Shown piece after piece: positions 19,226-36,992 of a DNA stretch of 64,000 nucleotides. Position 1 is the stretch's first letter; every line of letters begins with the position of its first letter. The stretch spans positions 806,001-870,000 of the forward strand of contig NZ_JAKMCM010000001.1 in NCBI RefSeq assembly GCF_022662015.1, in the 5' to 3' direction. The position numbers were made by a program, and so were the translations under genes. A model generated the notes under the pieces. The model ran no database searches and had not been told where the DNA came from. It worked only from the letters and a program-made list of their open reading frames with translations. This stretch comes from Aestuariivivens sediminicola. Lineage in GTDB: Bacteria > Bacteroidota > Bacteroidia > Flavobacteriales > Flavobacteriaceae.

Positions 19226-19599
19226 AATCATTCGTGATTTCCCTTATAGAACGATTAATAATTAGATCTAATCTTTCTTCAGATCTGATGTAAACCAAAA
19301 TATCTTCAGTTTGCTTGAGCTGCTATCAACCAATTAATTAGGAACAAATACAACACCTTCGAAAGACATCGGTACAATCAGTCTGAATTACCTTCTCTAA
19401 ATGTCCAATCTTCAATATTGCGTAAAATCAACTTTTAATAATTTTTTTGAAAGAACAGGTTTCCCTGTTTTTTAATTGTACGAAACTAATTATCGAATAA
19501 AAATTTTGATACTAATAAATTTTGTTATACTATTGCATTATGTATGACATAATATATTATATTTAACAATAACCATTTAACTAATTCAAATCATTTTGT
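19226..19599. other. 374-base leader region of the sialoglycan locus
   Basis: A non-coding, strongly AT-rich stretch before susC. It contains the palindromic operator-like site at 19539-19551 and possibly a TATATTTA -7-like element at 19558-19565. No ORF of note was seen. Confidence 0.6.
19539..19551. promoter_or_regulatory. Operator-like palindrome TATGT-ATG-ACATA upstream of susC
   Basis: A 5-bp inverted repeat with a three-base spacer, followed by ATA. The identical 16-base string TATGTATGACATAATA occurs before the mutarotase-transporter gene. The inner GT-N3-AC matches the general pattern of GntR/FadR-type operators, so the GntR regulator of this locus is the likely binder. Confidence 0.65.
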
Positions 19600-22500
19600 A
19601 TGAAAAAAAAAGATTTTAATATCAACAATTTGATATTCATTTTGTTCTTTTCTTTACCATTTCTGTGTATTGGTCAAGAGAAAACAATGACAGGGACCGT
19701 GGTTTCCGCAGAAGACGGTATGCCACTTCTTGGTGCTACCATAATTATTAAGGGCACCACTACAGGAACATCAACAGATTTTGATGGAAAATACACTTTA
19801 AATGCAACTACTGGAGATGTACTTGTCTTTAGCTATGTTGGTTATACCCCAGTCGAAATAGGAATAGAAACTGAAACAGTCATTAATGTTTCTTTAAAGG
19901 AAGATACTTCCGTATTAGACGAAATTGTAATTACGGGATATGGTAAACAAGCACGGACCAAGTTAACGACTTCAGTCTCAAAACTCGACACTCAGATTTT
20001 AGAGACCTCTACAAGGTCTAATGCTGCAACCGCTTTACAAGGAACAATTGCCGGTTTAAGAGTTACTAATACTACCGGACAACCAGGTTCAACGCCTCAA
20101 ATCGTGCTTCGAGGGGGAACGAATTTTGACGGTACAGGAGCTCCACTAATTTTAATTGATGGTATTCCAGGCTCTTTCTATGCCTTAAATCCTGATGATA
20201 TTGAATCCGTTGAGGTACTGAAGGATGCCGCTGCGACTGCCATTTATGGTGCAAGATCTGCAAATGGTGTTATTTTGGTAACAACGAAAACTGGTAAAAT
20301 TGGTAAATCATCAATAAATTACAAATACAGATACAGCACCAATAAAGAAAGAAATGATCAAAAATACCTTGGAGCTGCAGATCATATAAATTATAACAGA
20401 CAGTCCGTTGCATGGTATAGAGAAGTTGCCGGTAACCCGGGTGCCTTTGGAGCTTTTGTAGATGGTAATCATGGTGCTGGTACCGGGAACAATGCTACCA
20501 ACGATCCTTTTACAACACAACTACTGTCCACAACAAACCAATATCTATTAAATCAACCTGGATGGACCACAATTCCTGATATATTAAATCCTACCCAAGA
20601 CATCCTTTTCTACGATAATAAGGGCGTTGGTGACAGAATTTATCAAGACAGCTACAGTAAGGATCATTATTTATCCTTCGATGGTGGTAACGAAAAAGGC
20701 TCTTACTATCTCGGGTTAGGTCTTTTAGATAATGACGGACTAATTTTAGGATCCGGGTTTAAAAGGTACTCCGGTAAATTTAGTGGATCCTATCAGGTGA
20801 CAAATAGTGTGAGAGTGAATTCAAATATTTTATATTCTCATTCCAATTTAAGCCTGAGTCCGCTGGGTAGTGACAATACTGTATTTAGACGTTTTCAGGG
20901 ACAGGCTCCTACCTCCAGAACATACGATAGCAATCCGGACGGTACGTGGTCAGATCAATATGCTGTAGGTCAAAACCAAGGTTTTGGAAATCCATTATAT
21001 TATCAAGATAAATTTGTCAGAAAAAATTTAGAACAACGTCTGGCGGCGTCAGTTGGTATTAACTGGGATATTATCGATGATCTCACTTTTTCTGTAAACG
21101 GCAGTCATTTTGCAATCAATAATCATGATGAAAACTTTAACCGAGCCTACAGAGTAGGAAGCACTACCGGCCCACTTCGTACAGGTAGAGAGGCCAGTGT
21201 CAGTCTGGACAGAACCTTAAGAAACCAACTCACAGGAACCTTAAATTATACCAATCAAATAGGCAAGCACAATATTAATGCTTTAATTGGGGCAGAATAT
21301 TTCAAGGACAACTATTTCGGAACTTCCGCCGGAACAAGAAATTCACCAACCGATTTAATCGAAACGCTGAACGCGGGAGCAGAGGCAAATGGTATTCCTT
21401 CCAGTTTTGAAACTGAATATGTAATAACCTCTGCATTTGGGCGGTTCTTATATGATTTTGATGACAAATACTTATTTGGCTTTACATTTAGAAATGACGG
21501 TTCTTCAAGGTTAGGCAACAATAAATTTGATTTCTTCCCGGGAATATCCCTTGGATGGAATGCTCATAATGAAGCATTCTTCAAAGCATCCTCGATAAGC
21601 AATATTATTTCCAGATTAAAGCCCCGGTTGAGTTATGGGGTGAACGGGAATCAAGAGGTATTGAGTAATTATGGTGTCTACGGTTCTTATGGAGAACAAG
21701 GGGTTTACAACGGCCAAACCGGCTATGCGAACTCAAGCCTACCAACCCTGGATTTGCAATGGGAAAAATCAACCACTTTTAATACCGGTTTAGATATTTC
21801 TCTTTTTGAAAACAGGCTATCGTTTATTGCAGATGTTTATTCCAGGGATATCGAGGATAAATTAGCCAATCTTACCTTGCCATACTATACTGGATTCAGC
21901 GGTATACTGACGAATAACGGAACCATTAGAAATAAAGGTTTTGAGTTACAGGTGAATGGAGATATCGTTCGTAACGATGATTTTACCTGGAATCTCTCTG
22001 CAACCTTTACCACGAATAGAAACTATGTGGTAAAGCTTCCTGAAAATGACAACGAGTTTAACAGACAAGGTGGTACCCTAATCTGGAATCCAAAGACTGG
22101 ACAAGAAGAATGGGTAGGAGGTTTTCAGGAAGGTAAAAGATCCGGGCATGATTTGGTCGTAGCTTTCGAACAAGCCGGTATTTACGCCTCACAAGCCGAG
22201 GCTGATGCTGACAATAATATCACGGATAACTATGTGCCAGGAGCCAGCAGAAACAAGCGATGGGCTGGTGACGTAAAATGGGTCGACCAAAATAACGATG
22301 GTATTATCAATGAACTTGACCGAAAAGTTATAGGGCGAACCACTCCGGATTTTGTTGGTGGGTTTTCAACTAATTTAAGGTATAAGAATTTTAATCTCTT
22401 CGTTAAAACTGATTTCGCCACTGGACATTTAGTTTGGAACCACATCAGAAATAAAGGCTATGGTCAAACTCAGGGTAACTTGGCACAGCCTATTGAAGTC

Positions 22501-22854
22501 AAAGACTCCTGGACGCCAACGAATACGGATACGGATTGGCCCCGATTTGTGTTCGTCAATGGCTCAAAAAATGTCTGGAGGGGTAGTGAAAGTGCCAGTA
22601 GTTTAAAAAATTTTGGTAACGCCAAATTCTGGGAAAAAGGAGATTATCTGGCGCTTCGCGAAATCACTCTGAGTTATGATGTCCCCACGCAATACTTTAA
22701 CGAGGTTATCAAAAGATTAAGCCTATACCTTACCGGTTCTAACCTGCACTACTTCAAAAGTATGAGTGGCGACACCCCTGAGATCGGTGGCGTTCAATAT
22801 GGCGCTTTCCCCGTTCCAAAGACGTTTACAATTGGACTTAATGTAACATTTTAA
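19600..22854 (+). CDS. SusC/RagA-type TonB-dependent outer membrane transporter
   Basis: The 1084-residue protein has a signal peptide ending near 'IGQ'. A carboxypeptidase-like regulatory domain follows ('GTVVSAEDGMPLLGATIIIKG', 'STDFDGKYTL'), then the TonB box region and plug ('LDEIVITGYGKQ', 'ATAIYGARSANGVILVTTKTG') and a 22-strand barrel ending 'PKTFTIGLNVTF'. With the SusD partner 12 bases downstream it forms a pedal-bin glycan importer. By context it is the NanO-like transporter for sialic acid or sialylated oligosaccharides. Specificity is inferred from neighbours only. It is the first gene of the plus-strand run and is preceded by the shared palindrome. Confidence 0.96.
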   Translation: MKKKDFNINNLIFILFFSLPFLCIGQEKTMTGTVVSAEDGMPLLGATIIIKGTTTGTSTDFDGKYTLNATTGDVLVFSYVGYTPVEIGIETETVINVSLKEDTSVLDEIVITGYGKQARTKLTTSVSKLDTQILETSTRSNAATALQGTIAGLRVTNTTGQPGSTPQIVLRGGTNFDGTGAPLILIDGIPGSFYALNPDDIESVEVLKDAAATAIYGARSANGVILVTTKTGKIGKSSINYKYRYSTNKERNDQKYLGAADHINYNRQSVAWYREVAGNPGAFGAFVDGNHGAGTGNNATNDPFTTQLLSTTNQYLLNQPGWTTIPDILNPTQDILFYDNKGVGDRIYQDSYSKDHYLSFDGGNEKGSYYLGLGLLDNDGLILGSGFKRYSGKFSGSYQVTNSVRVNSNILYSHSNLSLSPLGSDNTVFRRFQGQAPTSRTYDSNPDGTWSDQYAVGQNQGFGNPLYYQDKFVRKNLEQRLAASVGINWDIIDDLTFSVNGSHFAINNHDENFNRAYRVGSTTGPLRTGREASVSLDRTLRNQLTGTLNYTNQIGKHNINALIGAEYFKDNYFGTSAGTRNSPTDLIETLNAGAEANGIPSSFETEYVITSAFGRFLYDFDDKYLFGFTFRNDGSSRLGNNKFDFFPGISLGWNAHNEAFFKASSISNIISRLKPRLSYGVNGNQEVLSNYGVYGSYGEQGVYNGQTGYANSSLPTLDLQWEKSTTFNTGLDISLFENRLSFIADVYSRDIEDKLANLTLPYYTGFSGILTNNGTIRNKGFELQVNGDIVRNDDFTWNLSATFTTNRNYVVKLPENDNEFNRQGGTLIWNPKTGQEEWVGGFQEGKRSGHDLVVAFEQAGIYASQAEADADNNITDNYVPGASRNKRWAGDVKWVDQNNDGIINELDRKVIGRTTPDFVGGFSTNLRYKNFNLFVKTDFATGHLVWNHIRNKGYGQTQGNLAQPIEVKDSWTPTNTDTDWPRFVFVNGSKNVWRGSESASSLKNFGNAKFWEKGDYLALREITLSYDVPTQYFNEVIKRLSLYLTGSNLHYFKSMSGDTPEIGGVQYGAFPVPKTFTIGLNVTF

Positions 22855-22866
22855 ATTTAAAACAAA

Positions 22867-24375
22867 ATGAAGAATTATATATTTATCATAATAGCTTTAA
22901 TCACAATAAGTAGCTGTGAAAATGAATTGGAACTATCTAGTCCGAGTCAATTAACGGCAGCAGGATTTTGGGATACAGAAGAAGGAGCACTTACGGCACA
23001 CACAGGTTTATATGCAAATCTCAGAAGTGAAGCCGGAGACCTTTGGTTATTGGGTGAAATGAGAAGTGATATCTGGGGAGGGCGAACCTATGAGTCTCCG
23101 TTTAATGAATCGCTTATCGAATCGAACATCACCGTTGCAACTGCGCCATTTGGCGGATGGGCAGGACTATATACGCTCATTCACAGAGTGAACGATTTTT
23201 TAACCAATGTTCCTAATGTGTCATTTAATGATGAGTCTGATAAAAACCATTTGTTAGGTCAGGCTTATGGTTTAAGAGCTCTGTATTATTACACCTTATT
23301 AAAAACATGGGGAGATGTCCCTATTATTTTAGAACCTCTAACGGATGTTAACCCGGAAGGTTTAAGTCGGGAAAGATCATCACAGGCAGAGGTTATGGCC
23401 TTGATTAAATCCGATATTGAAGCATCTTTAAACGCCTTTGGATCGGACAACAGCTTTTGGGAAGGAGGCCGTGTATTCTGGTCCAAAGCCGCCTCCTTAG
23501 CCTTAAAGGGAGATGTTTATATTTGGTCCGGAAATCTACTCAATGGCGGAAATTCTGATTTTACTGAGGCTAAAACAGCGCTACAACAAATTTCATCCTT
23601 AGGTGTTAGTCTTGTACCCAGTATTTCTGGACTATGGGGTGTTGAAAATGAAACGAACGAAGAATTTATTTTTGCGATCCAATATAAACGAGATGAGGCC
23701 TCAAACATTTACAATAGTTTAACAGGCAGAAGTACTGAAATTAATCCACAATACAACGATGCGGGGGAATCGATGAGTGATTTTATTATCGCCGGTGCTA
23801 ACAGATATGGTCAGTCTGAAAAGACCTTGTTTTTATTAGATGATAGTGATGATGCGCGCAAGGATGCCACTTTTATCAGATTATATACGGATGACAACGG
23901 CGGTCTGGGGTATCAAACCTATGACGAATCCAAGTACTTTGGTTCAATATTTAAGAAATTCCTTGGTCGGGTCGATGGTTCTGAACGTATTTTTGAAAAC
24001 GATGTTCCTGTATATAGATACGCAGATGTACTTTTACTTTTAGCCGAGGCAAAGAACTTGCTGGGCGAGGATCCCTCTGGAGAAATTAACCAAATTCGTC
24101 AACGGGCATATGGCGAAAATTATTCACCAGGAATTCATGCCTATGTGAATAGTACTCAGGCTGATAATGTTAACGCTATTTTAGAAGAGCGTTATAAAGA
24201 GTTTATTGGTGAGGGCAAACGTTGGTGGGATTTGAGACGTGCCGGAAATAATTATGTAATCAATAACATCAGTTACTTATCCGCAGGTGAAGAATATAAA
24301 TTATTATTGCCTATTACAACCGACATGATTGGGAGAAACCCACTCTTAAACCAAACACCCGGATATACCGATTAA
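22867..24375 (+). CDS. SusD/RagB-family glycan-binding lipoprotein
   Basis: The 502-residue protein begins with a lipoprotein signal (ALITISSC). It has the SusD landmarks: an N-terminal 'FWDTEEGALTAHTGLY', TPR-like helices ('LGQAYGLRALYYYTLLKTWGDVPI') and the C-terminal 'RYADVLLLLAEAKN', 'EERYKEFIGEGKRWWDLRR' and 'LLPITTDMIGRNPLLNQTPGY'. It is surface-exposed and captures the ligand for the adjacent SusC. The partnership is NanU-like by context. A hairpin after its stop separates it from nanA. Confidence 0.95.
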   Translation: MKNYIFIIIALITISSCENELELSSPSQLTAAGFWDTEEGALTAHTGLYANLRSEAGDLWLLGEMRSDIWGGRTYESPFNESLIESNITVATAPFGGWAGLYTLIHRVNDFLTNVPNVSFNDESDKNHLLGQAYGLRALYYYTLLKTWGDVPIILEPLTDVNPEGLSRERSSQAEVMALIKSDIEASLNAFGSDNSFWEGGRVFWSKAASLALKGDVYIWSGNLLNGGNSDFTEAKTALQQISSLGVSLVPSISGLWGVENETNEEFIFAIQYKRDEASNIYNSLTGRSTEINPQYNDAGESMSDFIIAGANRYGQSEKTLFLLDDSDDARKDATFIRLYTDDNGGLGYQTYDESKYFGSIFKKFLGRVDGSERIFENDVPVYRYADVLLLLAEAKNLLGEDPSGEINQIRQRAYGENYSPGIHAYVNSTQADNVNAILEERYKEFIGEGKRWWDLRRAGNNYVINNISYLSAGEEYKLLLPITTDMIGRNPLLNQTPGYTD

Positions 24376-24424
24376 TTTCATAATGTTTTAATAGTTTAGT
24401 TTTGTATTTGAGTTAGTTTCGAAG

Positions 24425-24458: not shown

Positions 24459-24490
24459 TCTACAAAACAATTTTTAAGTAAATTCGATTC

Positions 24491-25420
24491 ATGACTTTAA
24501 AAAACTTAATAGCAGCTGTTTATGCCCCGATGCATGAAAATGGGTCATTAAATACGACCAGGATAAAAGATTACGGTCAATTTCTATTACATAATGACAT
24601 TTCAGGTGTATTCATGAATGGATCTACTGGTGATTTTACATCACTTTCCATATCTGAAAGAAAAGAAATTACCTCGGCTTGGTCTAAATCTAAGTCCGGC
24701 CTTTACCTTATAGATCATGTTGGGGATCCCAGTTTAAACGTTGCGAAAGACCTGGCTACTTATGCCTCTGACAAAGTTGATGCCATTGCTGCCATTGCAC
24801 CATTTTACTTTAGATTAAACAGTGTTGATAAATTAGTGACCTATTGCAGCGAAATCGCCGCATGTGCCTCTAACTTACCTTTTTATTATTATCATATCCC
24901 AGTTTTATCCGGTGCTGATTTGAATATGGTGTCCTTTTTGGAAAAAGCGAGGAATGAAATTCCTAATCTGGCAGGTATCAAGTTTACGGACAACAACTTA
25001 ATAGATTATGGATTTTGCAAGAGTTTAGAAAATGGCAAATACAATATTTTATTTGGGTACGACGAATTATTTTTAAACAGTTTACCCTTAGGAGCAGAAG
25101 GTTGGGTAGGCAGTACCTATAACCATTTGGCGCCATTGTACTATAAAATTAAATCACACTTTAATAACGGAGATATGCCGGAAGCCGCCAAGCTACAATC
25201 CATGGCGATTAAATTTGTCCAGTTATTGGATAGTAAAGGTGGGTTTAATGGTGTCGCAAAAGGATTTATGAAACATCTTGGAGTTGATTGTGGACCAAGT
25301 AGGTTTCCACATACAACATTAACCGATGAGGATTATAAAGTGATAATTAAGGAACTCACGGCCATAGGATTGGAAAAATGGTTCAATAAAGGCATAGCCC
25401 AATCAGTTCATACAAAATAA
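24491..25420 (+). CDS. nanA: N-acetylneuraminate lyase
   Basis: The 309-residue member of the dihydrodipicolinate synthase/N-acetylneuraminate lyase family shows the phosphate/carboxylate-binding 'GSTGD' (residues 44-48), the catalytic Tyr region 'LPFYYYHIPVLSG' and the Schiff-base Lys164 in 'LAGIKFTDNN'. The 'YYYHIP' and 'GIKFTD' wording favours NanA over DapA. It cleaves sialic acid to ManNAc and pyruvate in the cytoplasm. Context supports this: an AGE epimerase, two sialidases and a sialic acid mutarotase lie in the same locus. It is convergent with the GntR gene, with a bidirectional terminator between them. Confidence 0.93.
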   Translation: MTLKNLIAAVYAPMHENGSLNTTRIKDYGQFLLHNDISGVFMNGSTGDFTSLSISERKEITSAWSKSKSGLYLIDHVGDPSLNVAKDLATYASDKVDAIAAIAPFYFRLNSVDKLVTYCSEIAACASNLPFYYYHIPVLSGADLNMVSFLEKARNEIPNLAGIKFTDNNLIDYGFCKSLENGKYNILFGYDELFLNSLPLGAEGWVGSTYNHLAPLYYKIKSHFNNGDMPEAAKLQSMAIKFVQLLDSKGGFNGVAKGFMKHLGVDCGPSRFPHTTLTDEDYKVIIKELTAIGLEKWFNKGIAQSVHTK

Positions 25421-25451
25421 AGATTTAATTAAAGCATTTACATATAAAGTC

Positions 25452-25536: not shown

Positions 25537-26262
25537 TTAAGATTTTACAATATGTAATATTCTATCAAAATGTGGTTCAAGGTGATTTCTCATAGCCTCT
25601 CTAAAGGATTGTGCATCGCCATTTTTTAAAATATTCAATAGGTCTCGATGTGTTACAAACTCACCTTTTGAATATTTAAAATCTTTGGCGCCTTCGGGCA
25701 TGTTATCATGCACATAGTTAAACACCGGCAACAATAAATCTTGAAACCGCTTCAATGTCGTATTGTTTGACAATTCATATAATTTACCATGGAAGGCGAT
25801 CTCATGTTTTAAGCTAAAAAATGTAGTGTCATTTTCCTCCTTTTCCTGTTTAGACACTATTTTATCCAAATCCTCAATATCTTCCTCAGTTTTTCTGGCA
25901 AATAACAGGTCGGCCATCCCCATTTCCAATATCAAACGCAATTCGAATATATCAATCAAGGCTTCTTCACCTAATAAATTATATTCAATGGCCTTTTCGA
26001 AATTCTGAACAATATCCGGTTGGGTAAGTACCATCCCTTTGCGCTTTTTCGACTCTATTACACCAATGGTTCTTAACCTTAAAAGCGCTTCTCGTATCAC
26101 AGTTCTGCTAACACCTAAAGCTTCAGCAAACTCAAGTTCTTTCGGTATGGAATCCCCTATTTTAAGGTTATTGACCTTAAAATATTCTTTCAGCCTCATT
26201 TCAACCTTATCCACTAACGATAAATTTTCTAAAGGTGTAATATTGTCAAGATTCGATTTCAT
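25537..26262 (-). CDS. FadR-subfamily GntR regulator (FCD domain), probable sialic acid regulator
   Basis: The 241-residue protein has an N-terminal winged helix with 'GDSIPKELEFAEALGVSRTVIREALLRLRTIGVIESKKRKGM'-type signature (about residues 36-78). The C-terminal FCD ligand-binding helical domain follows, with metal-ligand histidines ('EIAFHGKLYELSNN', 'FVTHRDLLNILKNGD', 'MRNHLEPHFDRI'). FadR-type GntR proteins include NanR, which responds to sialic acid. Its position inside the sialic acid locus and the three shared palindromes support that role by inference. It is divergent from the AGE epimerase gene, with a palindrome between. Confidence 0.9.
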   Translation of the reverse strand: MKSNLDNITPLENLSLVDKVEMRLKEYFKVNNLKIGDSIPKELEFAEALGVSRTVIREALLRLRTIGVIESKKRKGMVLTQPDIVQNFEKAIEYNLLGEEALIDIFELRLILEMGMADLLFARKTEEDIEDLDKIVSKQEKEENDTTFFSLKHEIAFHGKLYELSNNTTLKRFQDLLLPVFNYVHDNMPEGAKDFKYSKGEFVTHRDLLNILKNGDAQSFREAMRNHLEPHFDRILHIVKS

Positions 26263-26317
26263 ATAATTTTATTGTTAAAAAATTGAAATACAATTATATA
26301 ATTTATTATTTTTGTAT

Positions 26318-26330
26318 TATGTTATACATA
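26318..26330. promoter_or_regulatory. Operator-like palindrome TATGT-TAT-ACATA between gntR and the epimerase gene
   Basis: Read on the minus strand this is TATGTATAACATAATA, one base different from the 16-base string before susC. It lies 56 bases before the gntR start and 62 before the epimerase start, fitting autoregulation plus control of the enzyme gene. A second, outward palindrome ACATA-T-TATGT follows at 26341-26351. Confidence 0.65.
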
Positions 26331-26391: not shown

Positions 26392-27561
26392 ATGAAATAT
26401 GCAACTCTATATAAAGACACTTTACTTCACGACATAATTCCATTTTGGGAAACTTACTCTTTAGATCGAAAAAACGGAGGCTATTATACCTGTCTGGACA
26501 CCTCTGGAACTATCTATGATACCGATAAGTTCATATGGCTTCAAGGAAGACAAGCGTGGACATTTTCCATGCTTTACAATAAGGTTGAACAAAATGAAAA
26601 ATGGTTAGATATTTCCAAAAATGGTATTGATTTTCTGCGCAAATATGGGATGAATGAAAATGGTGACTTCTATTTTTCTGTAACTAACGATGGCAAACCT
26701 TTAGTAAACGCTTATAATATTTTTTCAGACTGTTTCGCTGCTATGGCCTTCAGTCAATATGCCATTGCATCGGGCGATGTAGAGGTAAAGGCATTGGCAA
26801 AAAAAGTTTACACTAACATTCTTAAGAGAATAGATAATCCAAAAGGAAGGTTCGAAAAAAACATGGATACCAGACCGCTAATAGGTTTCTCCTTGCCCAT
26901 GATATTGTCAAATCTGGTGTTAGAATTGGAAAACGTATTAGATCCTCAGGAGGTCGAGAAAACCATCGATTATAGTGTCAACCAGGTTATGAACGTGTTT
27001 CTGGATACAGAAACAGGATTGATTTTTGAACATGTTTTACCCAATGGCGAACACCATGACAGCTTTAATGGACGCCTTTTAAATCCTGGACATGGCATCG
27101 AAGCCATGTGGTTCATGATTGATATAGGTGTACGAAGAAAAGATCAAGACCTTATAAATAAGGCCACAGAGACCATATTACATATTCTAAAATTCAGCTG
27201 GGACGAAAAATATGGCGGAATATATTATTTTATGGATTCAAAAGGGTACCCTCCTCAGCAATTGGAATGGGATCAGAAACTGTGGTGGGTCCATTTAGAA
27301 ACCTTAGTGGCATTGTCCAAAAGCTACCAGTACACACAAAATAGTGCCATTTTAAAATGGTACACTAAAGTCCATGACTATGCATGGAATCATTTTTCAG
27401 ATCCTGAAAACGGAGAGTGGTTTGGCTATTTAAATCGCCGTGGTGAAGTATTACTAAACTTGAAAGGCGGTAAATGGAAAGGTTGTTTTCATGTTCCGAG
27501 AGCCATGTACCAATGCTGGAAAGCTTTTGAAAATATTGAATCAAACAACAATTTTAAATAA
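26392..27561 (+). CDS. AGE-family N-acylglucosamine 2-epimerase (ManNAc to GlcNAc)
   Basis: The 389-residue protein is of the alpha/alpha-barrel AGE/renin-binding-protein family. Motifs include '[21 protein letters not shown]', '[18 protein letters not shown]', '[18 protein letters not shown]' (catalytic His region), '[13 protein letters not shown]' and '[14 protein letters not shown]'. In Bacteroidota such enzymes (NanE type in the NanLET pathway) convert ManNAc released by the lyase to GlcNAc, avoiding a ManNAc kinase. It is the first gene of the plus-strand run that continues through the sialidase. Cytoplasmic, no signal peptide. Confidence 0.92.
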
Positions 27562-27568
27562 TAACACG

Positions 27569-28702
27569 ATGATAAAATACAGTGTAATGTTCATGGCTCT
27601 ACTGCTATTGAGTAATTGTAAAACCAAATCGAACGACGAAAAAATTGATTCCCATGTTCATCCCCCGGAATCCGTATCGCTTTTCAAAACAGGCATGCAG
27701 GAAGGCGTATCCTGTTATAGAATTCCGTCTATTGTAACCACCCCAAACGGTGATTTACTCGCTGCAATAGATCAACGCGTACCATCCTGCGGGGATTTAA
27801 AATGGAGCAAGAATATCAATATCGTTACAAGAAGGAGTGAGGACAATGGTAAAAGCTGGACTCCTATTGAAACCGTTATTGATTTTCCTGAAGGACAATC
27901 TGCTTCCGATCCCTCAATGATCGTTGATACCATTACGGAAACTATTTTTCTGTTTTATAATTATATGAATTTGGAAACCGAAAAAGACATCTATTATTTG
28001 CATGTCATGCAAAGCACTGACGATGGAAAAACCTGGTCCGAACCAAAAGATATTACTTCGCAAATAACGACATCAGAATGGGAAAAAGATTTTAAATTTA
28101 TCACTTCCGGAAGAGGCATACAAACACGTTCGGGAAAACTTTTGCATACTATGGTAAACTTAAACAGAGGATTACACATTTTTGGAAGTGACGACCATGG
28201 TAAAACATGGTACTTCATAGACCAGCCCATCCAACCTGGCGATGAGTCAAAAATTGTTGAACTTGCAGATGGGACTTTGATGATTAATTCTCGGGTTAAC
28301 AAAAAAGGTATGCGCTATGTCCATCGATCTACCGATGAGGGCCAAACTTGGGTTACTAAGGCCGAAACCGAGTTAATAGATCCGGGTTGTAATGCCAGTA
28401 TCATTCGTTACACATCGACAAAAGATGGATTCGCGAAGAACCGGTTGCTGTTCTCAAACGCCAAATCAGCTAAAGACCGAATGAATATGACCGTAAGAAT
28501 AAGCTATGATGAAGGTCTGACCTGGAGTGAAGGCAAAACCATTTATGCCGGATCATCCGCATACTCCTCATTAACCGTTTTGCCAAATGGAGATATCGGG
28601 TTGTTTTTCGAAAAGGACGATTACACCAATAACGAATTTACCAGCTTCTCCCTCGAGTGGCTCACTGACGGAGAAGATAAACTTGAAGATATAAAGCGGT
28701 AA
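27569..28702 (+). CDS. Exo-alpha-sialidase family lipoprotein (first copy)
   Basis: The start is taken at MIKYSVMFMALLLLSNC (ATG 27569), giving 377 residues with a lipobox Cys; the frame is open further upstream inside the epimerase gene. The six-bladed sialidase propeller is shown by 'YRIPSIVTTPNGDLLAAIDQR', the RIP-type motif with the first Arg, and five Asp-box repeats (SEDNGKSW, STDDGKTW, SDDHGKTW, STDEGQTW, SYDEGLTW). The carboxylate-binding Arg triad appears complete by eye. It should release terminal sialic acid at the cell surface or periplasm. It is tightly spaced after the epimerase and before the GH20-SGNH gene. Confidence 0.93.
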   Translation: MIKYSVMFMALLLLSNCKTKSNDEKIDSHVHPPESVSLFKTGMQEGVSCYRIPSIVTTPNGDLLAAIDQRVPSCGDLKWSKNINIVTRRSEDNGKSWTPIETVIDFPEGQSASDPSMIVDTITETIFLFYNYMNLETEKDIYYLHVMQSTDDGKTWSEPKDITSQITTSEWEKDFKFITSGRGIQTRSGKLLHTMVNLNRGLHIFGSDDHGKTWYFIDQPIQPGDESKIVELADGTLMINSRVNKKGMRYVHRSTDEGQTWVTKAETELIDPGCNASIIRYTSTKDGFAKNRLLFSNAKSAKDRMNMTVRISYDEGLTWSEGKTIYAGSSAYSSLTVLPNGDIGLFFEKDDYTNNEFTSFSLEWLTDGEDKLEDIKR

Positions 28703-31315
28703 ATGCAACATAAAAGTCCTAATTGTTCGTTGTTCTTTTTCCTTGGAGTATGCATGACATTTCATCTGTATTCGCAAGATTTAGAAAGTACATTTGAATC
28801 TCATCTGTCGGCAGAACAACTCAACAATGCCCCTGTAAAACTGATTCCCTTTCCTCAAGAGGTGCAATGGCAAAAAGGTACGGTTCATGTTACAGAGGTA
28901 AATATTCAGAGCAATACAAATCTAAATCCCACAACAAATGCGCTTATAGAAACCATTTTTAATCCTAACAGCATTAAAAATAAAGCCAAAGGGTTTTATC
29001 TGAAATTTACACCTGATGAACAGATGTCCGCCGAAGGCTATGCCTTAAGTGTCCAAGAAAAAGGTGTTGAAATTAGATTTAAAACCGAAGCCGGACGTTT
29101 TTATGGCTTGCAAACCTTGCGACAACTTACATCAACCACCCATGGGGAAACCCATATACAGCTTTGTGAAATAACTGATGCTCCTGCGCACAGTGTCCGT
29201 GGCTTCATGTTAGATGTAGGACGAAATTTTATAGGTTTGGATATTCTAAAGGAACAACTCGATATTATGGCGAGATATAAGTTAAATGTGTTCCAATGGC
29301 ATTTAACGGACCGCCCTGCATGGCGTATCCAAAATAAGAAGTACCCGGAACTCACCTTAGCCAAGAACCACCGCCAAACAAGAAATCCCGGAAAATATTA
29401 TACGTATAATGAGATCAGAGAGTTGATTGCCTATGCCAAGGACAGGCATATTTCTGTTATTCCAGAAATAGACATGCCCGGACACAGCGACTCGTTTACT
29501 ACTGCAATGGGCTACCCTATGTCCTCAGAAAAAGGAATGATAGCTCTTGAAAACATATTAAATGAATTCTTCAGTGAAATCCCGAAAGACATGTGTCCAA
29601 CCATACATTTGGGTTCAGATGAGGTTGAAATTGACAATCCCGAAGTATTTATGAACAAAATGATTGGTATTTGCCAAGATCATGAGCGTGATGTCATCGT
29701 TTGGAATCCCGGTCTCAAAATCGACCATGACGTCATAAGACAAACCTGGAGACCTAACAATCTTGAAAACAAGGGGTACCGAGAAATCGATTCCTGGAAT
29801 AGTTATTTAAACAACAGCGAACCCATGACGGCCATTCCGAAATTATTGTTTAAACCCATTGGATATGGTTCGAAGAACACCATATTAGGAGGAATACTCT
29901 GTCTTTGGCCCGATGTGCGCCTCAACGCCGAAACCGACTTTATTGATCAAAATCCATTATATCCTGCCTTGCTGGCCTATTCCTGGAGCACCTGGACCGG
30001 TGATATTGAAAAAAGCTCCGATCGCTACCTGACCATGTTACCTGAAAGGGGCTCTTCGGCTTTTCATTATTTTAAGGCCTTTGAAGACTTTCTGCTTTAT
30101 CATAAGATTCGCTTTTTTAAAAACAAACCTTTTCCTTATGTTAGACAGGCTAATAGAGAATGGTTGCTCTATAAATCGGAAGACGCTTTCGACGGTCAAC
30201 TTTTGGAGAAAAAAATAATGCGTAGAGCACCTATAGACACCACGAATTGGATAAGCGCAGTTGGCAACACCATCATTATCAAGGACCGGTTTAAACAAGG
30301 TGGTTATTTTCCAGAAGCTCAAGTCGACGATGTCGTATATGCGATCACCACATTGCATGCGGAACATGAGGAAACCGTTAAAGCCTGGATTGGATTTGAA
30401 ACACCTTTAAGAGCGAACAGGACCTATACCGGCATAGCAGAGCGAGGCACCTGGGATGCCAATGGTGGAACCATCTGGTTAAACGGAGAAGAATTGGAGG
30501 CACCTAACTGGGAGCATCCCGGATGGAAGCCATCAAAGCGCGACGGCTGGGGAAGCAAGGAAGATCAGGAGGTCCCATGGCGCAAAGAAGAATTATATTG
30601 GACACGAGAGCCGATTCATATACACCTTAATAAAGGAAGCAACAGGCTTGTATTTCGAGTACCTTCGACCTCAGATTATCAAAACTGGATGTTTACCTTT
30701 GCTCCCATAGAGCGTATCAAAACATATTCGAATCACTACTACCAACGAAAAGCCCGGTTCGAAGGAGAACCGGACACGGATAACGAATTGATTTTTTTAG
30801 GGAACAGTATTACGGAAGGAGGCAACTGGAAACTTCTTTTTCCGGAGCACAATGTCATAAACAGGGGTATAAGCGGCGACGTTACCGATGGTATTTTAAA
30901 CAGGATAGACGAAATCACATCATCACGACCCTCAAAAGTGTTTTTGTTAATCGGAACTAATGATATGGCTCGGGGGAAAAGTGTAGATGATGTGCTGGAT
31001 GGCACACGTCAGATTATAGAGCAGATTCAAAAAAAATCAGAGCACACTAAAATATACCTTCAAAGCATATTGCCAATTCATCCTCATGTGGGTCAAAAGT
31101 TTTCCGGTCATAAAAAAAACCACGACAACATTTTAATGGCCAACAAGGCTTTGGAAGAATTAGCGCAAGCACTTCATGTCGAATTTATTGATCTTCACTC
31201 GTCCATGAGTAACAGGAAGAAGTACCTGAAACCAAAATACACCAACGACGGACTGCATTTAAGTGAAAACGGGTATAAAAAATGGAAAAAAATAATTCGT
31301 CAATATGTCAACTAA
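28703..31315 (+). CDS. Fusion: GH20 beta-N-acetylhexosaminidase plus C-terminal SGNH/GDSL esterase
   Basis: The 870-residue protein has a signal peptide. A GH20 N-terminal domain (about 45-160) is followed by the catalytic barrel with 'WHLTDRPAWRIQNKKYPELT', 'VIPEIDMPGHS' and the catalytic Asp306-Glu307 in 'HLGSDEV'. A beta-sandwich linker (about 500-680) leads to an SGNH hydrolase domain (about 695-870) with 'FLGNSITEGG' (Ser), 'RGISGDV' (Gly), 'LLIGTND' (Asn) and 'NDGLHLS' (Asp/His). GH20 removes terminal GlcNAc/GalNAc. The esterase could remove O-acetyl groups from sialic acid or other sugars so the enzymes can act. The esterase substrate is inferred from context. Confidence 0.9.
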   Translation: MQHKSPNCSLFFFLGVCMTFHLYSQDLESTFESHLSAEQLNNAPVKLIPFPQEVQWQKGTVHVTEVNIQSNTNLNPTTNALIETIFNPNSIKNKAKGFYLKFTPDEQMSAEGYALSVQEKGVEIRFKTEAGRFYGLQTLRQLTSTTHGETHIQLCEITDAPAHSVRGFMLDVGRNFIGLDILKEQLDIMARYKLNVFQWHLTDRPAWRIQNKKYPELTLAKNHRQTRNPGKYYTYNEIRELIAYAKDRHISVIPEIDMPGHSDSFTTAMGYPMSSEKGMIALENILNEFFSEIPKDMCPTIHLGSDEVEIDNPEVFMNKMIGICQDHERDVIVWNPGLKIDHDVIRQTWRPNNLENKGYREIDSWNSYLNNSEPMTAIPKLLFKPIGYGSKNTILGGILCLWPDVRLNAETDFIDQNPLYPALLAYSWSTWTGDIEKSSDRYLTMLPERGSSAFHYFKAFEDFLLYHKIRFFKNKPFPYVRQANREWLLYKSEDAFDGQLLEKKIMRRAPIDTTNWISAVGNTIIIKDRFKQGGYFPEAQVDDVVYAITTLHAEHEETVKAWIGFETPLRANRTYTGIAERGTWDANGGTIWLNGEELEAPNWEHPGWKPSKRDGWGSKEDQEVPWRKEELYWTREPIHIHLNKGSNRLVFRVPSTSDYQNWMFTFAPIERIKTYSNHYYQRKARFEGEPDTDNELIFLGNSITEGGNWKLLFPEHNVINRGISGDVTDGILNRIDEITSSRPSKVFLLIGTNDMARGKSVDDVLDGTRQIIEQIQKKSEHTKIYLQSILPIHPHVGQKFSGHKKNHDNILMANKALEELAQALHVEFIDLHSSMSNRKKYLKPKYTNDGLHLSENGYKKWKKIIRQYVN

Positions 31316-32090
31316 CAAAACGAAAAGACCACGCCCTTATGTATTGTCAGAGACCAACTGGAAAGATCTGAAAACGCAGGATTTTACAGTTGCAGTCTTA
31401 CCATGGGGTGCGACAGAGGCCCATAACTATCATCTCCCTTATGGAACCGACCACTATCTCGCTGAAAAAGTGGCCATCTCCAGTGCGGGCAAAGCCTGGA
31501 AACAAGGCGCCAGGGTTATCGTGCTTCCAACGATCCCCTTTGGTGTGAATACAGGGCAGATAGCCATTCCACTGTGCATGAATATGAATCCCAGTACACA
31601 ATATGCCGTTTTGAAAGACACCGTTCAGGTTTTAGCACATCATAACATCAAAAAATTAGTCATCGTTAATGCCCATGGAGGGAATAACTTCAAGCACATG
31701 GTGCGCGAGTTGGGTTTGGAATTTCCCTCTGTCTTCTGTTGCGCCGTTAATTGGTGGCAATCCGTTAAAGCGGAATCGTTTTTTGAAGAACCCGGAGATC
31801 ATGCTGGAGAATTGGAAACAGCCACCATGCTTTTTCTCAAACCAGAATTGGTCCTTCCCCCTGAGCATTGGGGTCAAGGTAAAAGTAAATCATTTAAGAT
31901 CAAAGGATTAAAAGAGGGTTGGGTCAGTGCGCAACGTCAATGGCACAAAGTAAGTGAAGATACCGGTGTGGGCAACCCAAAAATGGCAACCAAAGACAAA
32001 GGTGAAAAATTCTTCAACGCGGTGACAACCCAAATAGCTTCGTTTCTTGAAGAAATACACAGTGCTGATTTAAATGATATGTACGAGTAG
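31305..32090 (+). CDS. Creatininase-family amidohydrolase in the sialic acid locus
   Basis: The 261-residue protein overlaps the end of the fusion gene by 11 bases. It shows the creatininase family metal-binding pattern: 'LPWGATEAHNYHLPYGTDHYLAE' (Glu, His, Asp), 'VIVNAHGGNNF' and 'PGDHAGELETATM' (Asp-His...Glu). The family hydrolyses cyclic or linear amides using two metal ions (creatininase, ArfB, MftE). No signal peptide is present, so it acts in the cytoplasm. A role in sialic acid catabolism is not established. The tight translational coupling suggests it processes an imported product such as an unusual N-acyl or lactam form. Confidence 0.85.
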   Translation: MSTNKTKRPRPYVLSETNWKDLKTQDFTVAVLPWGATEAHNYHLPYGTDHYLAEKVAISSAGKAWKQGARVIVLPTIPFGVNTGQIAIPLCMNMNPSTQYAVLKDTVQVLAHHNIKKLVIVNAHGGNNFKHMVRELGLEFPSVFCCAVNWWQSVKAESFFEEPGDHAGELETATMLFLKPELVLPPEHWGQGKSKSFKIKGLKEGWVSAQRQWHKVSEDTGVGNPKMATKDKGEKFFNAVTTQIASFLEEIHSADLNDMYE

Positions 32091-32112
32091 AAACAAAGAA
32101 CCCTTAAACCAT

Positions 32113-33273
32113 ATGCATCCCTTAAAACCATTTATTTACTTTATTGTTATTCTGTTGATCAGTGCTGGCTGCAAGTCTAAAGACAAACGCCATCCACAGG
32201 CACCTGGAACCACTCTCCAAAATGAGAACATCACGTTGAATCCAATATTTATAAAAGGCCAAAACGGATACGCCTGCTTTAGAATACCCGCAATTGTTGT
32301 AACACATGATGGCAGTATACTCGCTTTTTCCGAGGCAAGAAAGAATAGCTGTTCAGATACAGGAGATATTGATTTGGTTATGCGAAAATCCACCGATAAT
32401 GGCACATCATGGGGTGAGATTAAGGTCATTTGGGATGATGGCGAAAATGTGTGCGGAAATCCTGCTCCCGTTATAGATGCGGAAACCGGACGCATTCACT
32501 TGTTGTCAACCTGGAACCTTGGTGAAGATCATGAATCTGAAATTATTGAAGGCACGAGCAAGGGGACACGTGAAATCGTACATTTAATTTCAAACGATGA
32601 CGGTAACACCTGGACCACTCCGAGAAACATAACCAAATCGGTGAAGTTACCCAACTGGACCTGGTATGCCACAGGACCGGTTCACGGGATACAATTAAAG
32701 AATGAAACATTTAAGGGAAGGTTGGTTATCCCCTGCGATTTCATTGAATCCCAATCAAAAAAGATGTATTCCCATATAATTTATTCAGACGACAATGGGC
32801 AGACCTGGCAATTGGGTGGGATTGCACCCAATGATAAGGTTAACGAATCGACGGTAGCCGAACTTGAAAACGGTGATTTGCTCCTAAATATGCGCAATTA
32901 TAATCGAGACAGTATTCAAGGGCGGCAAATCGCCTTTAGTAGTGATGGTGGTTTAACCTGGAAAGATCAGTATATTGAGGAAAATTTGCCCGAACCCGTT
33001 TGCCAGGGTGCTTTACTGGGTGTAGAAAGGAATGACAAACAGGTGTTACTGTTTTCAAATCCATCCAATAATGAGTCAAGAACCAATATGACGGTCACTT
33101 TGAGTAGGGATCAGGGAAAATCGTGGAACGAAAAAATCAGCATTTATAAAGAACACGCTGCTTATTCGGATTTAGCTGAGCTTAAAAATGGTGCAATTGC
33201 CGTTGTTTTTGAAGCCGGTATTGAAAATGCCTACGAGGGTATCTTTATAAAAACAATAACATTGGAAGACTGA
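32113..33273 (+). CDS. nanH: Exo-alpha-sialidase family lipoprotein (second copy)
   Basis: The start is taken at MHPLKPFIYF (ATG 32113), giving 386 residues with lipobox 'LLISAGC'. It is a more canonical sialidase: 'YACFRIPAIVVTHDGSILAFSEAR' (FRIP motif), Asp boxes 'STDNGTSW', 'SNDDGNTW', 'SDDNGQTW', 'SSDGGLTW' and 'SRDQGKSW', and later catalytic-type 'NESTVAELENGDLLLNMRN' (Glu region) and 'AYSDLAEL' (Tyr region). It cleaves alpha-linked sialic acids on glycoconjugates at the surface. Its sequence differs clearly from the first copy, suggesting a different linkage preference. It precedes the GH2 gene by about 115 bases. Confidence 0.94.
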   Translation: MHPLKPFIYFIVILLISAGCKSKDKRHPQAPGTTLQNENITLNPIFIKGQNGYACFRIPAIVVTHDGSILAFSEARKNSCSDTGDIDLVMRKSTDNGTSWGEIKVIWDDGENVCGNPAPVIDAETGRIHLLSTWNLGEDHESEIIEGTSKGTREIVHLISNDDGNTWTTPRNITKSVKLPNWTWYATGPVHGIQLKNETFKGRLVIPCDFIESQSKKMYSHIIYSDDNGQTWQLGGIAPNDKVNESTVAELENGDLLLNMRNYNRDSIQGRQIAFSSDGGLTWKDQYIEENLPEPVCQGALLGVERNDKQVLLFSNPSNNESRTNMTVTLSRDQGKSWNEKISIYKEHAAYSDLAELKNGAIAVVFEAGIENAYEGIFIKTITLED

Positions 33274-33389
33274 TCGCGGTATGATATGTATACTGTACTT
33301 GAGGTGACCTTTCGTGTTTTGGTATTTTAACGGTATCTGCGTATAACAACAATACCTCAATTTGATAGCACATTTTAAAATTGAAATAT

Positions 33390-36300
33390 ATGTTTGGTTT
33401 TGGATTACATAGTTTTAAAAAACACTTGCTTGTCGGGCTCATGTTTATTTTGACACAGGCCTATTCTCAGATCCCGGACCCCATAGCGAATTACAAAGAC
33501 TATATTGAAAATGAACAGATCATAGAAGAAAATAAGCTGGCTTCCCACGCCTCATTCACATCATTTACCTCGGTCGATGCTGCAATGAGAAACAGGCCTG
33601 AATTTTACCAATCGTTGGATGGGGTATGGAAATTTAACTGGGTAAAAAATCCAAAGGATCGGCCGATAACCTTTATGAATCCAGATTTTGACATCTCCAA
33701 CTTTGACAGTATTAAAGTCCCGGCTAATTGGGAGTTGGAAGGCTTTGGGATTCCCATTTATGTGAACCATCAGTACGAATTTGCCGATTTTAAGGCCCCT
33801 GTTGCAGAAGACATGGAATTTATCGATGGAAGATATCCCAAAAATCCGGGTAAGGTCCCCAATGACTATAATCCTGTCGGGACCTATCGTCGCGACTTTA
33901 ATTTGGATGACACCTGGAAGGGTAAAGAAATTGTCTTGCATATAGGCGCCATGAAATCAGGTGGTTTCGTATGGCTCAACGGTCAGTATATCGGGTATTC
34001 ACAAGGCAGCAAACTGCCTGCTGAATTTAATATTACCGAAGCCGCCAAAACCGGGAAAAATGTCCTAGCCATTCAAATATTCAGATGGACAGATGGGTCC
34101 TATCTGGAGTGTCAGGATTTTTGGAGAATAAGTGGCATTGAACGCAGTGTGTTTGTCTATGCACAGCCCAAAATTCGCATTGCGGACTTTGAGGTATTAT
34201 CCACTTTGGATGCATCTTATACAAATGGCGTATTTGACCTTTCCGTGATCCTGGAAAACAAATTAGCAAAAAACCAACTCGGTAAGGTCTCATACAAGAT
34301 ATTAAACGATAAATCGTCAGCCGTTTTAACAGGAAGCACGTCATTTTCTGTCGAGGGAAACAGCACTCAGGAACTCGTTTTAAATGGCACCCTTAACCAG
34401 GTAAAACCCTGGAGTGCAGAGCATCCAAATCTTTATACCTTGGTTATAGAAACGGAGGACAAAAAAGGAAACCTACTCGAGGCTACTGCTGTAAAGATTG
34501 GGTTCCGGTCCGTTGAAATAAAACAAGGTCGCCTTCTGGTCAACGGACAATGCATTACTTTAAAGGGCATCAATACGCAGGAAACGGATCCAGATACGGG
34601 TCATGTGATGTCTGATGACCTCATCTTAAAAGACATTACCTTGTGGAAACAGCATAATATAAATGCGGTTCGTTTAAGTCATTATCCCAGGGGAAAACGC
34701 TTTTATGAACTCTGCGACATGCATGGTATCTATGTTATTGATGAGGCCAATATAGAATCGCATGGTATGTATTATGGTAAATATTCACTGGCTAAAAATT
34801 CCAATTGGGAAAGAGCGCACCTTGATCGCATGATTCGTATGGTACAGCGCGATCGCAACCACCCTTCCGTCATCATATGGTCCATGGGGAACGAAGCGGG
34901 CAATGGCGAAAATTTTTATAAGGGATATAAGGCCATCAAACAACATGATAAGACCAAAAGACCTGTTCAATATGAACGCCCTTATAAAGATTACGATGGG
35001 AGTCTTTATGACATGGATTGGAATACCGATATTATTGTCCCGCAATATCCATCACCTCAAACATTCGAGACCATTGGAAAGTCAAAAACAGACCGTCCGT
35101 TTATCCCCAGTGAATATGCACATGCCATGGGTAACAGTACAGGAAATTTTCAGGACTATTGGGACATTATAGAACAATACGACCATCTGCAAGGCGGATT
35201 TATCTGGGATTGGGTCGATCAGTCCATATGGAAAACCAATGAAAAAGGCGAACGCTATTATGCCTATGGAGGTGACTATGGGAACCATATGCCAACAGAC
35301 AATTCCTTTCTCAACAATGGCATCGTATTTCCGGATCGGACCCCTCAACCGGGTTTATATGAGGTAAAAAAGGCCCATGAATTTATTAACTTCAAACATA
35401 AAGGTGTAAATCGGCACAATGAGTTACGGGTATTAGTTGAAAACCTCTATGATTTCACGAATTTAGATCGATTTACATTGACGGCGAAGATTAAAGGAGA
35501 TGGCAGCGTTCTAAAAACCATAGTCATCCCGGATCATGCCGTAGAACCCCATACCGGAAAACTCATTAGAATTGATCTCAATGGTGTTGCCTTTAAGGAG
35601 AATACCGAATATTTTGTAGAGATCTCAGCAAAAACCAAAAATAGGTGGGGCCTGATTCCAAAAGACTTTGAAGTAGCTCATGAACAGATTGAATTGGTGG
35701 ATAAGTATAAACTATCTCCAACCCATAGCGAATGGAATGGTGCACTGACTATTGAGGAGTCCCCCAATTTTATACATGTTCATGGCAAAAGCTTTAGCAT
35801 AACCTTCGATAAGCGCAAAGGACAAATGACATCCTATGCTTATCACGAAAAGGAACTTCTGAAAAACGGTAATGGGCCGAGACCCAATTTCTGGCGCCCT
35901 GTTACCGATAATGACCTGGGTAACCGCATGGCGCAACATAACATCGAATGGAAGCGGGCCTCCCTGGATTTAAAAGTGAAGCATTTCGAGGTTATAAAAG
36001 GTGACGAAGCTCCTCTAAAGATTGGCATCACCTATGATCTCCCCGGGGTAGAAACAACATTTAAATCCATCTACACCCTATTTGGAAATGGCGTCATTAA
36101 AATCGACAATACATTACATGAAACCCATTATGAAGCCGATATCCCACGTGTGGGAATGCGCATGCAGTTGCAAAAGGAATATGATAGTTTGACCTACTAT
36201 GGCAGAGGCCCTTGGGAAAATTATCACGATAGAAAAGCCTCGGCCTTCATGGATATTTACAGGCAAACCGTTAAGGAACAATACGTCCCCTATATACGTC

Positions 36301-36707
36301 CCCAGGAAAACGGCTATAAAACAGATACGCGATGGCTGGCCATTTACAATACAAACCACGAAGGGCTGCTTTTTGTAACGGATCAGGTCCAACCGGGTTT
36401 TGGCTTTAGCGCTCATCATATGCCCAATGAGATGTTCGATGTGACATCCGGTCTTGATTACAAGGGAAATGAGGCTAACCCAAGCAAACATACTACAGAT
36501 ATCACAGCTCAGGATCTGGTACAAATCAATATCGATCTGAAACAACGCGGACTTGGAGGCGATGACAGTTGGTACGCCAAACCTCAGAAGAAATATAGGA
36601 TCAGTGGCCAGTTAAAACACCAATATGGTTTTTATTTGATCCCTTTCAAAGGATGGAATGAAGAGGATTTTATATCGGCGGGTAAATTATATGCACATCA
36701 GGATTGA
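33390..36707 (+). CDS. GH2 beta-galactosidase (LacZ-like), exported
   Basis: The start is taken at the ATG at 33390, giving 1105 residues with a signal peptide (MFGFGLHSFKKHLLVGLMF...YSQ). The GH2 five-domain layout is present: sugar-binding domain ('WKFNWVKNPKDRP', 'VPANWELEGFG'), Ig-like domains, and a catalytic barrel with the acid/base Glu502 in 'WSMGNEAGN' and nucleophile Glu575 in 'IPSEYAHAMGN'. The C-terminal beta-gal small-chain domain includes 'YYGRGPWENYHDR'. It should remove terminal beta-galactose exposed after desialylation, in the periplasm. Confidence 0.95.
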   Translation: MFGFGLHSFKKHLLVGLMFILTQAYSQIPDPIANYKDYIENEQIIEENKLASHASFTSFTSVDAAMRNRPEFYQSLDGVWKFNWVKNPKDRPITFMNPDFDISNFDSIKVPANWELEGFGIPIYVNHQYEFADFKAPVAEDMEFIDGRYPKNPGKVPNDYNPVGTYRRDFNLDDTWKGKEIVLHIGAMKSGGFVWLNGQYIGYSQGSKLPAEFNITEAAKTGKNVLAIQIFRWTDGSYLECQDFWRISGIERSVFVYAQPKIRIADFEVLSTLDASYTNGVFDLSVILENKLAKNQLGKVSYKILNDKSSAVLTGSTSFSVEGNSTQELVLNGTLNQVKPWSAEHPNLYTLVIETEDKKGNLLEATAVKIGFRSVEIKQGRLLVNGQCITLKGINTQETDPDTGHVMSDDLILKDITLWKQHNINAVRLSHYPRGKRFYELCDMHGIYVIDEANIESHGMYYGKYSLAKNSNWERAHLDRMIRMVQRDRNHPSVIIWSMGNEAGNGENFYKGYKAIKQHDKTKRPVQYERPYKDYDGSLYDMDWNTDIIVPQYPSPQTFETIGKSKTDRPFIPSEYAHAMGNSTGNFQDYWDIIEQYDHLQGGFIWDWVDQSIWKTNEKGERYYAYGGDYGNHMPTDNSFLNNGIVFPDRTPQPGLYEVKKAHEFINFKHKGVNRHNELRVLVENLYDFTNLDRFTLTAKIKGDGSVLKTIVIPDHAVEPHTGKLIRIDLNGVAFKENTEYFVEISAKTKNRWGLIPKDFEVAHEQIELVDKYKLSPTHSEWNGALTIEESPNFIHVHGKSFSITFDKRKGQMTSYAYHEKELLKNGNGPRPNFWRPVTDNDLGNRMAQHNIEWKRASLDLKVKHFEVIKGDEAPLKIGITYDLPGVETTFKSIYTLFGNGVIKIDNTLHETHYEADIPRVGMRMQLQKEYDSLTYYGRGPWENYHDRKASAFMDIYRQTVKEQYVPYIRPQENGYKTDTRWLAIYNTNHEGLLFVTDQVQPGFGFSAHHMPNEMFDVTSGLDYKGNEANPSKHTTDITAQDLVQINIDLKQRGLGGDDSWYAKPQKKYRISGQLKHQYGFYLIPFKGWNEEDFISAGKLYAHQD

Positions 36708-36992
36708 ATTTTACAACTACCAATAAAGACAACCAATACCATACGCTATGGAATACTTCAATACCCTCCTGAACAGGATCTGCAAATGAAGACCCAAACA
36801 ATTTATATATTTAATATGTATGACATAATACTTTTATGTATATTTTCCCTATATTAGCATCCTGAAATTGATGAGCAAAGATTATCTATTTAATTTTCCT
36901 GGATCCGGTTATAGCCAATCGGACCCTTATGTCATTAAAAAACCTAATGCAGAGTGTTTCAATTATCTTGTTATTTTAAGACATCGCTGTCC
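36708..36992. other. 285-base intergenic region before the mutarotase-transporter gene
   Basis: A non-coding AT-rich region with the operator-like palindrome at 36815-36827 and a possible TATATTTT -7-like element at 36839-36846. No other feature was seen. Confidence 0.5.
36815..36827. promoter_or_regulatory. Operator-like palindrome TATGT-ATG-ACATA before the mutarotase-transporter gene
   Basis: Exact copy of the site before susC, including the following ATA. It probably marks a second promoter in the locus under the same GntR regulator. Confidence 0.65.

Follow-up and report, generated by a model that had tools for sequence, protein, structure and literature searches.

The window analysed in this study is a stretch of 64,000 nucleotides (nt) of Aestuariivivens sediminicola (contig NZ_JAKMCM010000001.1, positions 806,001 to 870,000). 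It holds a gene cluster in which a short palindrome, TATGT-N3-ACATA, occurs three times, once beside the gene of a GntR-family regulator. The cluster is a sialoglycan utilization locus of a member of the Flavobacteriaceae. Its genes were assigned with Pfam and NCBIfam profiles and lie on the forward strand, except for the regulator gene. The TonB-dependent transporter gene susC (19600-22854) is followed by susD (22867-24375) and nanL (24491-25420), which encodes an N-acetylneuraminate lyase-like protein of the DHDPS family (best NCBIfam match, below its cut-off). On the minus strand, gntR (25537-26262) encodes an FCD-type GntR protein, the proposed reader of the three sites. An N-acylglucosamine (N-acetylmannosamine, ManNAc) 2-epimerase gene (26392-27561) scored above the curated NCBIfam cut-off, and the open reading frame (ORF) called for a first BNR sialidase (27491-28702) overlaps it, so the true start of this sialidase is probably downstream. 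Then come a glycoside hydrolase (GH) family GH20 hexosaminidase fused to a GDSL/SGNH esterase domain (28703-31315), a creatininase-family protein (31305-32090), a second BNR sialidase (32074-33273), a GH2 beta-galactosidase-like protein (33381-36707), a NanM-like mutarotase fused to a sodium:solute symporter (36954-39608) and a GH109-like protein (39628-40992). The 19-nt gap before the GH109-like gene suggests that it is probably on the same transcript as the NanM-symporter gene. The creatininase-family gene is also present within the sialic locus of many relatives.

Operator 1, TATGTATGACATAATA (19539-19554, forward strand), lies 5' of susC, at the same promoter position as in relatives. Operator 2, TATGTATAACATAATA (26315-26330, minus strand), lies in the gntR/epimerase intergenic region. 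Operator 3, again TATGTATGACATAATA (36815-36830, forward strand), lies 5' of the NanM-symporter gene. All three are between called genes, and the centres of operators 1 and 3 are 55 nt 5' of susC and 133 nt 5' of the called NanM-symporter gene start, respectively. The initial annotation had picked out these three places by eye, with no further copy and with the first and third identical over 16 bases. An exact search of the window with TATGTNNNACATA returned three matches only (19539-19551, 26318-26330 and 36815-36827), and the 16-mers of operators 1 and 3 are indeed identical, that of operator 2 differing by one base. In 100 dinucleotide shuffles of the window, the mean was 0.15 matches of TATGTNNNACATA and none reached three. 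The three copies in the cluster are not due to chance. The annotation had also regarded many random matches across the genome as an argument against a regulon of this kind; TATGTNNNACATAATA, a broader 16-mer, matched three places in the genome (3,654,899 bases, 21 contigs), which are the three cluster sites and the only TATGT-N3-ACATAATA matches. The bare 13-mer TATGT-N3-ACATA was found at five places, two of them besides the cluster sites. One of these (C14:82764) falls within a 246-aa ORF. The other (C10:396673) is within a short ORF call of about 92 codons, yet it is possibly intergenic, because it also lies 47 nt 5' of a 145-aa ORF.

A match to the GntR protein at E<=1e-40 was found in 29 of 299 family genomes. 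In the named genome collection there were 22 such loci, of which 5 were of sialic and 17 of sister type, and the closest named relatives were in Flaviramulus, Wocania, Snuella and Aestuariivivens (84-86% identity). In this close clade, the operator again occurs 5' of susC, between gntR and the epimerase gene and 5' of the NanM-symporter gene, and also 5' of nanL where nanL has its own promoter. The sialic set comprised 34 stretches (581,396 bases), namely 25 gntR loci including the window and 9 stretches remote from gntR that carry a nan gene; not part of it were L113, L118, L119, L120 and the 11 remote stretches that carry no nan gene. It contained 72 exact sites against one match of the reversed pattern. 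None of the 72 was within the genes covered by 26 tblastn queries, and an exact site adjoined gntR in 24 rows. Over the 299 family genomes, TATGTNNNACATAATA was present in 26 of the 29 with GntR (the window's own included) and in 47 of the 270 without it. Two or more matches were found in 25/29 and 6/270, respectively; both tallies are hand counts in which a site matching on both strands was counted twice. The three GntR genomes without TATGTNNNACATAATA (G120, G155 and G170) have distant or sister-type regulators.

Sites outside the gntR loci were then considered. Twenty were fetched; G073 holds one of them and GntR genomes the other 19. Seven were 5' of a NanM-symporter gene and two 5' of nanL. 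In two genomes, a relocated nanM and a relocated nanL, one of each and with the site included, are on another contig than gntR. Four further sites were at genes for GH2, alpha-galactosidase, a GxDLY-SGNH esterase and a secreted sialidase, the last falling just within the called ORF start. The fragmented genome G196 has one further site with susC-promoter flanks and a C centre at a contig end, and a second one 5' of an ORF that is followed by GH2 (67% identity). A relative of the same genus as G283 (G035) keeps the nanM-symporter, sialidase, epimerase and nanL genes at L211 (G035:C1:1132801-1152800). In these 20 kb, gntR, susC and susD were not found, and in the whole genome nothing matched GntR at E<=0.001 or TATGTNNNACATAATA. 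The locus has no exact site, and its sole one-mismatch 13-mer lies 2.2 kb upstream of nanL, outside the promoters. This joint loss of gntR and promoter sites is a single case in the expected direction. As a search pattern, the operator can lead to sialoglycan genes that are unlinked; here it gave transporter, lyase, sialidase and galactosidase genes. In the species of G168, exact operators lie directly 5' of GH2 and alpha-galactosidase genes far from gntR (L125, L126), which suggests a wider regulon there.

The promoters were compared through alignment of related promoters, by which the -7-like boxes were found. The sequence TANNTTTG is the -7 element of Bacteroidota, and the box TANNNTTG resembles it. 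On the forward strand of the window, the susC promoter has a -33-like TTTTG (19504-19508) and a -7-like box TACTATTG (19528-19535) that ends 3 nt before operator 1. The epimerase promoter has the box TATTTTTG (26307-26314), also 3 nt before the 13-mer of operator 2, and a further box TATATTAG (36850-36857) stands 22 nt after the 13-mer of operator 3. In the related promoters, TANNNTTG ended 0-5 nt before the site in 13/23 susC, 23/24 epimerase and 13/16 nanL rows, and the shuffle means were 0.44, 0.35 and 0.30, respectively. The gap was 3 nt in all 13 susC cases and in 21 epimerase cases, and 2 or 3 nt in 10 nanL cases; thus, the operator starts 2-3 nt after the box in 44 of the 63 rows. An extended palindrome would yield a mirror-image box on the far side of the site. 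Where one gene alone flanks the site, such a box was found in 0/19 susC rows against 11 for the real side and in 1/14 nanL rows against 12; epimerase rows are unsuited to this comparison because gntR occupies the other side. Scans for sigma-70 style promoters and for terminators gave no excess over shuffles. As far as the aligned promoters tell, the layout is that of a repressor, which would cover the transcription start or the -33 region.

The GntR protein has the two domains of the FCD (FadR) subfamily, a GntR winged helix (PF00392, 50.8 bits, cut-off 27) and an FCD domain (PF07729, 68.9 bits, cut-off 24.3). The putative operator is a GT-N(0-3)-AC palindrome as is usual for this subfamily, so the initial annotation was right that its inner GT-N3-AC fits the FadR/GntR pattern. 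The AlphaFold2 model (mean pLDDT, the predicted local distance difference test, 84) matched GntR/FCD structures of the PDB in Foldseek with TM-scores of about 0.5. FadR-DNA structures were among the matches, and the NanR-sialic acid complex 6on4 ranked fifth. A winged-helix dimer on a palindromic GT-N3-AC operator, as proposed here, is also known from E. coli FadR, which differs in its TGGT half-site and in its effector, a fatty acyl-CoA. Arg109, Glu154, His158, His205 and His227 of the window protein align with Arg128, Asp172, His176, His222 and His244 of E. coli NanR, which bind the carboxylate and zinc. The last four would supply the ligand set of metal-dependent FCD domains (Asp/Glu and three His), and all five are invariant in the 42 regulators compared (42/42). 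Phe168 and Leu245 also match E. coli NanR. Three features set the protein apart from known NanR types. It scored 90.1 bits with the NCBIfam NanR profile NF003011, below the curated cut-off of 260. Its putative sites are single TATGT-N3-ACATA palindromes and not the tandem GGTATA repeats of the E. coli type. It does not belong to the ROK family, as the Bacteroides-type NanR does.

We believe that the three sites very probably serve the FCD-GntR protein encoded at 25537-26262 as operators, and that it would act as a repressor released by an intermediate of the sialic acid pathway. Binding, repression and an effector are what we infer as the best explanation of the sites, their conservation and linkage, the promoter geometry and the protein family. 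A GntR dimer would bind TTATGT-N3-ACATAA-like palindromes at the promoters of susC-susD-nanL and NanM-symporter and in the intergenic region shared by gntR and the epimerase gene. Because one site is in this shared region, GntR would also control itself. The site of susC and that of the epimerase gene begin directly downstream of the -7 box and cover the expected start of transcription; the nanM site is upstream of its -7-like box, near -33. Bound GntR would block RNA polymerase until a pathway intermediate, most likely N-acetylneuraminic acid (Neu5Ac) at the FCD metal site, releases it. Neu5Ac is our preference as effector by analogy with NanR. That the local GntR protein binds all three sites and autoregulates had been the simplest reading of the initial annotation, and comparison lends it strong support: relatives have the site at the same promoters, the site follows nan genes that moved, and it is missing from the promoters of the one relative that lost gntR. 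An alternative is that GntR binds the sites but activates, or acts with mixed sign, instead of simply repressing; we consider this unlikely. The nanM promoters leave some room for this, since the -7-like box is 12-22 nt downstream of the site in 10/13 rows (counted without a shuffle control), and activators can also sit there. At susC, the epimerase gene and nanL, the site overlaps the expected transcription start in most rows, where activation is unlikely, and E. coli NanR, the best known FCD regulator of sialate genes, is described as a repressor (PMC8012715).

Several observations weigh against a GntR repressor of sialoglycan genes. A -7 box is absent from the expected place in 10/23 susC rows. 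Beyond the metal and Arg128, the Neu5Ac contacts of E. coli NanR are mostly not conserved: Asn165, Ile200, Arg203, His214, Asn215, Ser218 and Gln221 do not match. The conserved metal and carboxylate residues are common to regulators of non-sialic loci and therefore do not identify the effector. One stretch of the sialic set (L048) has no exact site, only a one-mismatch site at gntR. The locus L118 (gntR-epimerase-sialidase, 51% identity) has no site beside gntR, and among the 20 largest direct-repeat families listed for each of L118-L120 nothing recognisable was found. There is no sialic link at seven of the 20 remote sites (L128, L130, L132, L136, L137, L138 and L140): one is at a GH43 gene (L137), one at a cytochrome/porin-like pair, three have no assignment and two are inside ORFs, with Pfam run on the neighbours of L130, L137 and L138 only. 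The genome G073 has a site without a GntR protein at the threshold used. In the window's own genome, near-matches are common: 145 places had at most one mismatch, against 207 for the reversed control pattern, and the longer pattern with up to two mismatches gave 383 against 512. These relaxed scans were dropped as uninformative, because the control gave more places than the pattern, and only exact sites are informative. Common near-matches, together with the TATGTNNNACATAATA matches in 47 of the 270 genomes without GntR, would also fit sites of a different, global regulator with gntR as a mere passenger. We consider this improbable: exact 16-mers in the genome number three, all in the cluster; the presence of sites goes with gntR over the 299 genomes; G035 is without both; and an exact site adjoins gntR in the 24 rows given above. 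That the palindromes are structural elements of RNA or DNA or repeat debris, as inverted repeats within AT-rich intergenic DNA might be, is very improbable, since five-base arms and a three-base loop are in our judgement too weak for a terminator, the spacer centre is class-specific and the distance to the -7-like boxes is fixed.

The proposed repressor resembles several known systems in part. The E. coli NanR sialoregulon (PDB 6on4, 6wfq) also has an FCD-GntR protein and sialic acid genes in several operons under one operator. Its operator consists of GGTATA direct repeats, bound cooperatively via a 32-residue N-terminal extension according to PMC8012715, unlike the single N3 palindromes here. 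Bacteroides NanR (BT0433) is a predicted regulator of sialic acid genes in Bacteroidota in the account of PMC3878776; unlike the window regulator, it is a ROK protein, and it is the sole regulator we found proposed for this group so far. AusR of Zobellia galactanivorans is described as a GntR-family repressor of a marine flavobacterium with one to three operator copies, and its target is the alginate utilization system (PMC8286568, PMC7874173). Three GntR proteins beside alginate lyase genes (L025, L026 and L029) were 24-26% identical to the window protein, with Ser at the Thr54 position, and none of ten loci of 3.5-3.7 kb each (L024-L033) had a perfect 6-bp GT-N3-AC palindrome. The siaC locus of Capnocytophaga canimorsus has a gntR-like gene, an epimerase and a sialidase in a row (PMC2533406). 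The sialic acid polysaccharide utilization locus of Tenacibaculum maritimum has SusCD, lyase, epimerase and a NanM-symporter fusion (PMC5561996). The passages on these two loci describe no operator or regulator function, and a search of the literature outside subscription and non-commercial-licence papers found no description of the regulator or operator. The system is of an ordinary kind and newly delimited, and it gives a searchable operator for sialic acid use across a wide group of Bacteroidota. The surprising part is a testable specificity pattern.

This pattern concerns the centre of the operator. A sister clade of GntR proteins, 47-53% identical to the window protein, has the same half-sites. 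Its loci (L053-L069, e.g. L059:1930-15544) carry GH28-like and large symporter genes, often myo-inositol oxygenase, and most have the latter, NAGLU (NAGLU/HGSNAT), GH92, GH115 or PI-PLC. They look like loci for the use of inositol-bearing glycans, of a glycosylphosphatidylinositol (GPI)- or glycosyl inositol phosphorylceramide (GIPC)-like kind. That the sister clade is the alginate regulator AusR was rejected on these gene contents. One such locus (L054), of Bacteroidota inositol type, is carried by a metagenome-assembled genome (MAG) labelled Thalassovita (Pseudomonadota), which is probably mis-binned.

An A/T centre was found in 70 of the 72 sites of the sialic set, and a G/C centre in 27/27 exact sister sites. 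Position 54, the second residue of the recognition helix predicted from the AlphaFold2 model (53-66), is Thr in 25/25 sialic-set regulators and Asn in 17/17 sister regulators. More distant sialic loci with Asn54 regulators (L119b, L120, L164, L165, L171 and L179) each carry a G/C-centred site, and the idea that the centre reflects the sugar used was rejected. The residue-54 comparison was extended to 18 fresh stretches, which hold 19 regulators. TATGT-N3-ACATA sites were 12 A/T and 2 G/C for Thr54, and 0 A/T and 5 G/C for Asn54; under a looser site definition, they were 13 and 4 for Thr54, and 3 and 10 for Asn54. A Ser54 regulator had two A/T-centred sites. Alignment columns were ranked on the 50 of 66 regulators that had a clean site without a tie. 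Neither this ranking nor the second tree included six near-identical regulators, five from Leeuwenhoekiella species records and one from a Leeuwenhoekiella MAG. Within the DNA-binding domain, the top column was position 54 when ranked against the operator centre and position 41 when ranked against the fourth base of the half-site. In the effector domain, column 198 ranked slightly above position 54 for the centre, a sign of shared ancestry.

All Thr54 proteins fall in one clade of the tree (support 100/97), and the site counts therefore overstate the evidence for a residue-54 rule. Little of the evidence is independent: it comes to a single switch and a single Ser case, plus exceptions. The Thr54 regulators of L113 and L180 have G/C-centred sites only. 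Single sites at L110, L135 and L224 deviate, that of L224 being a G/C-centred site in a Thr54 genome, and the first look at the fresh loci also gave stray sites. The looser definition adds G/C sites at L052, L117, L166 and L177, and A/T sites to the Asn54 regulators of L062, L172, L178 and L179. E. coli FadR has Thr at the matching position and yet a G/C centre, so any such rule would be local. On these alignments, the operator centre appears mostly to track residue 54 (Asn or Thr), essentially on one branch and with exceptions. It is a tentative proposal, and rather doubtful, that paralogous GntR repressors of Bacteroidota with the same half-sites are separated by the centre base pair, Thr54 or Ser54 going with A/T and Asn54 with G/C whatever the sugar, and that the fourth half-site base correlates with the presence or absence of Lys at residue 41. 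If true, a one-residue, one-base specificity switch would insulate neighbouring glycan regulons. Through the spacer pattern, it can be tested cheaply how paralogous repressors that share their half-sites avoid cross-talk.

Besides the standard locus (L114), the genome G106 has L113 (G106:C1:1984601-2004600), where a close duplicate of the sialic GntR stands next to another SusCD pair; the operator there, TATGTCGGACATA at 4633, is G-centred. In another genome, three similar Asn54 GntR genes lie within about 16 kb (L168 and L178, G475:C1).

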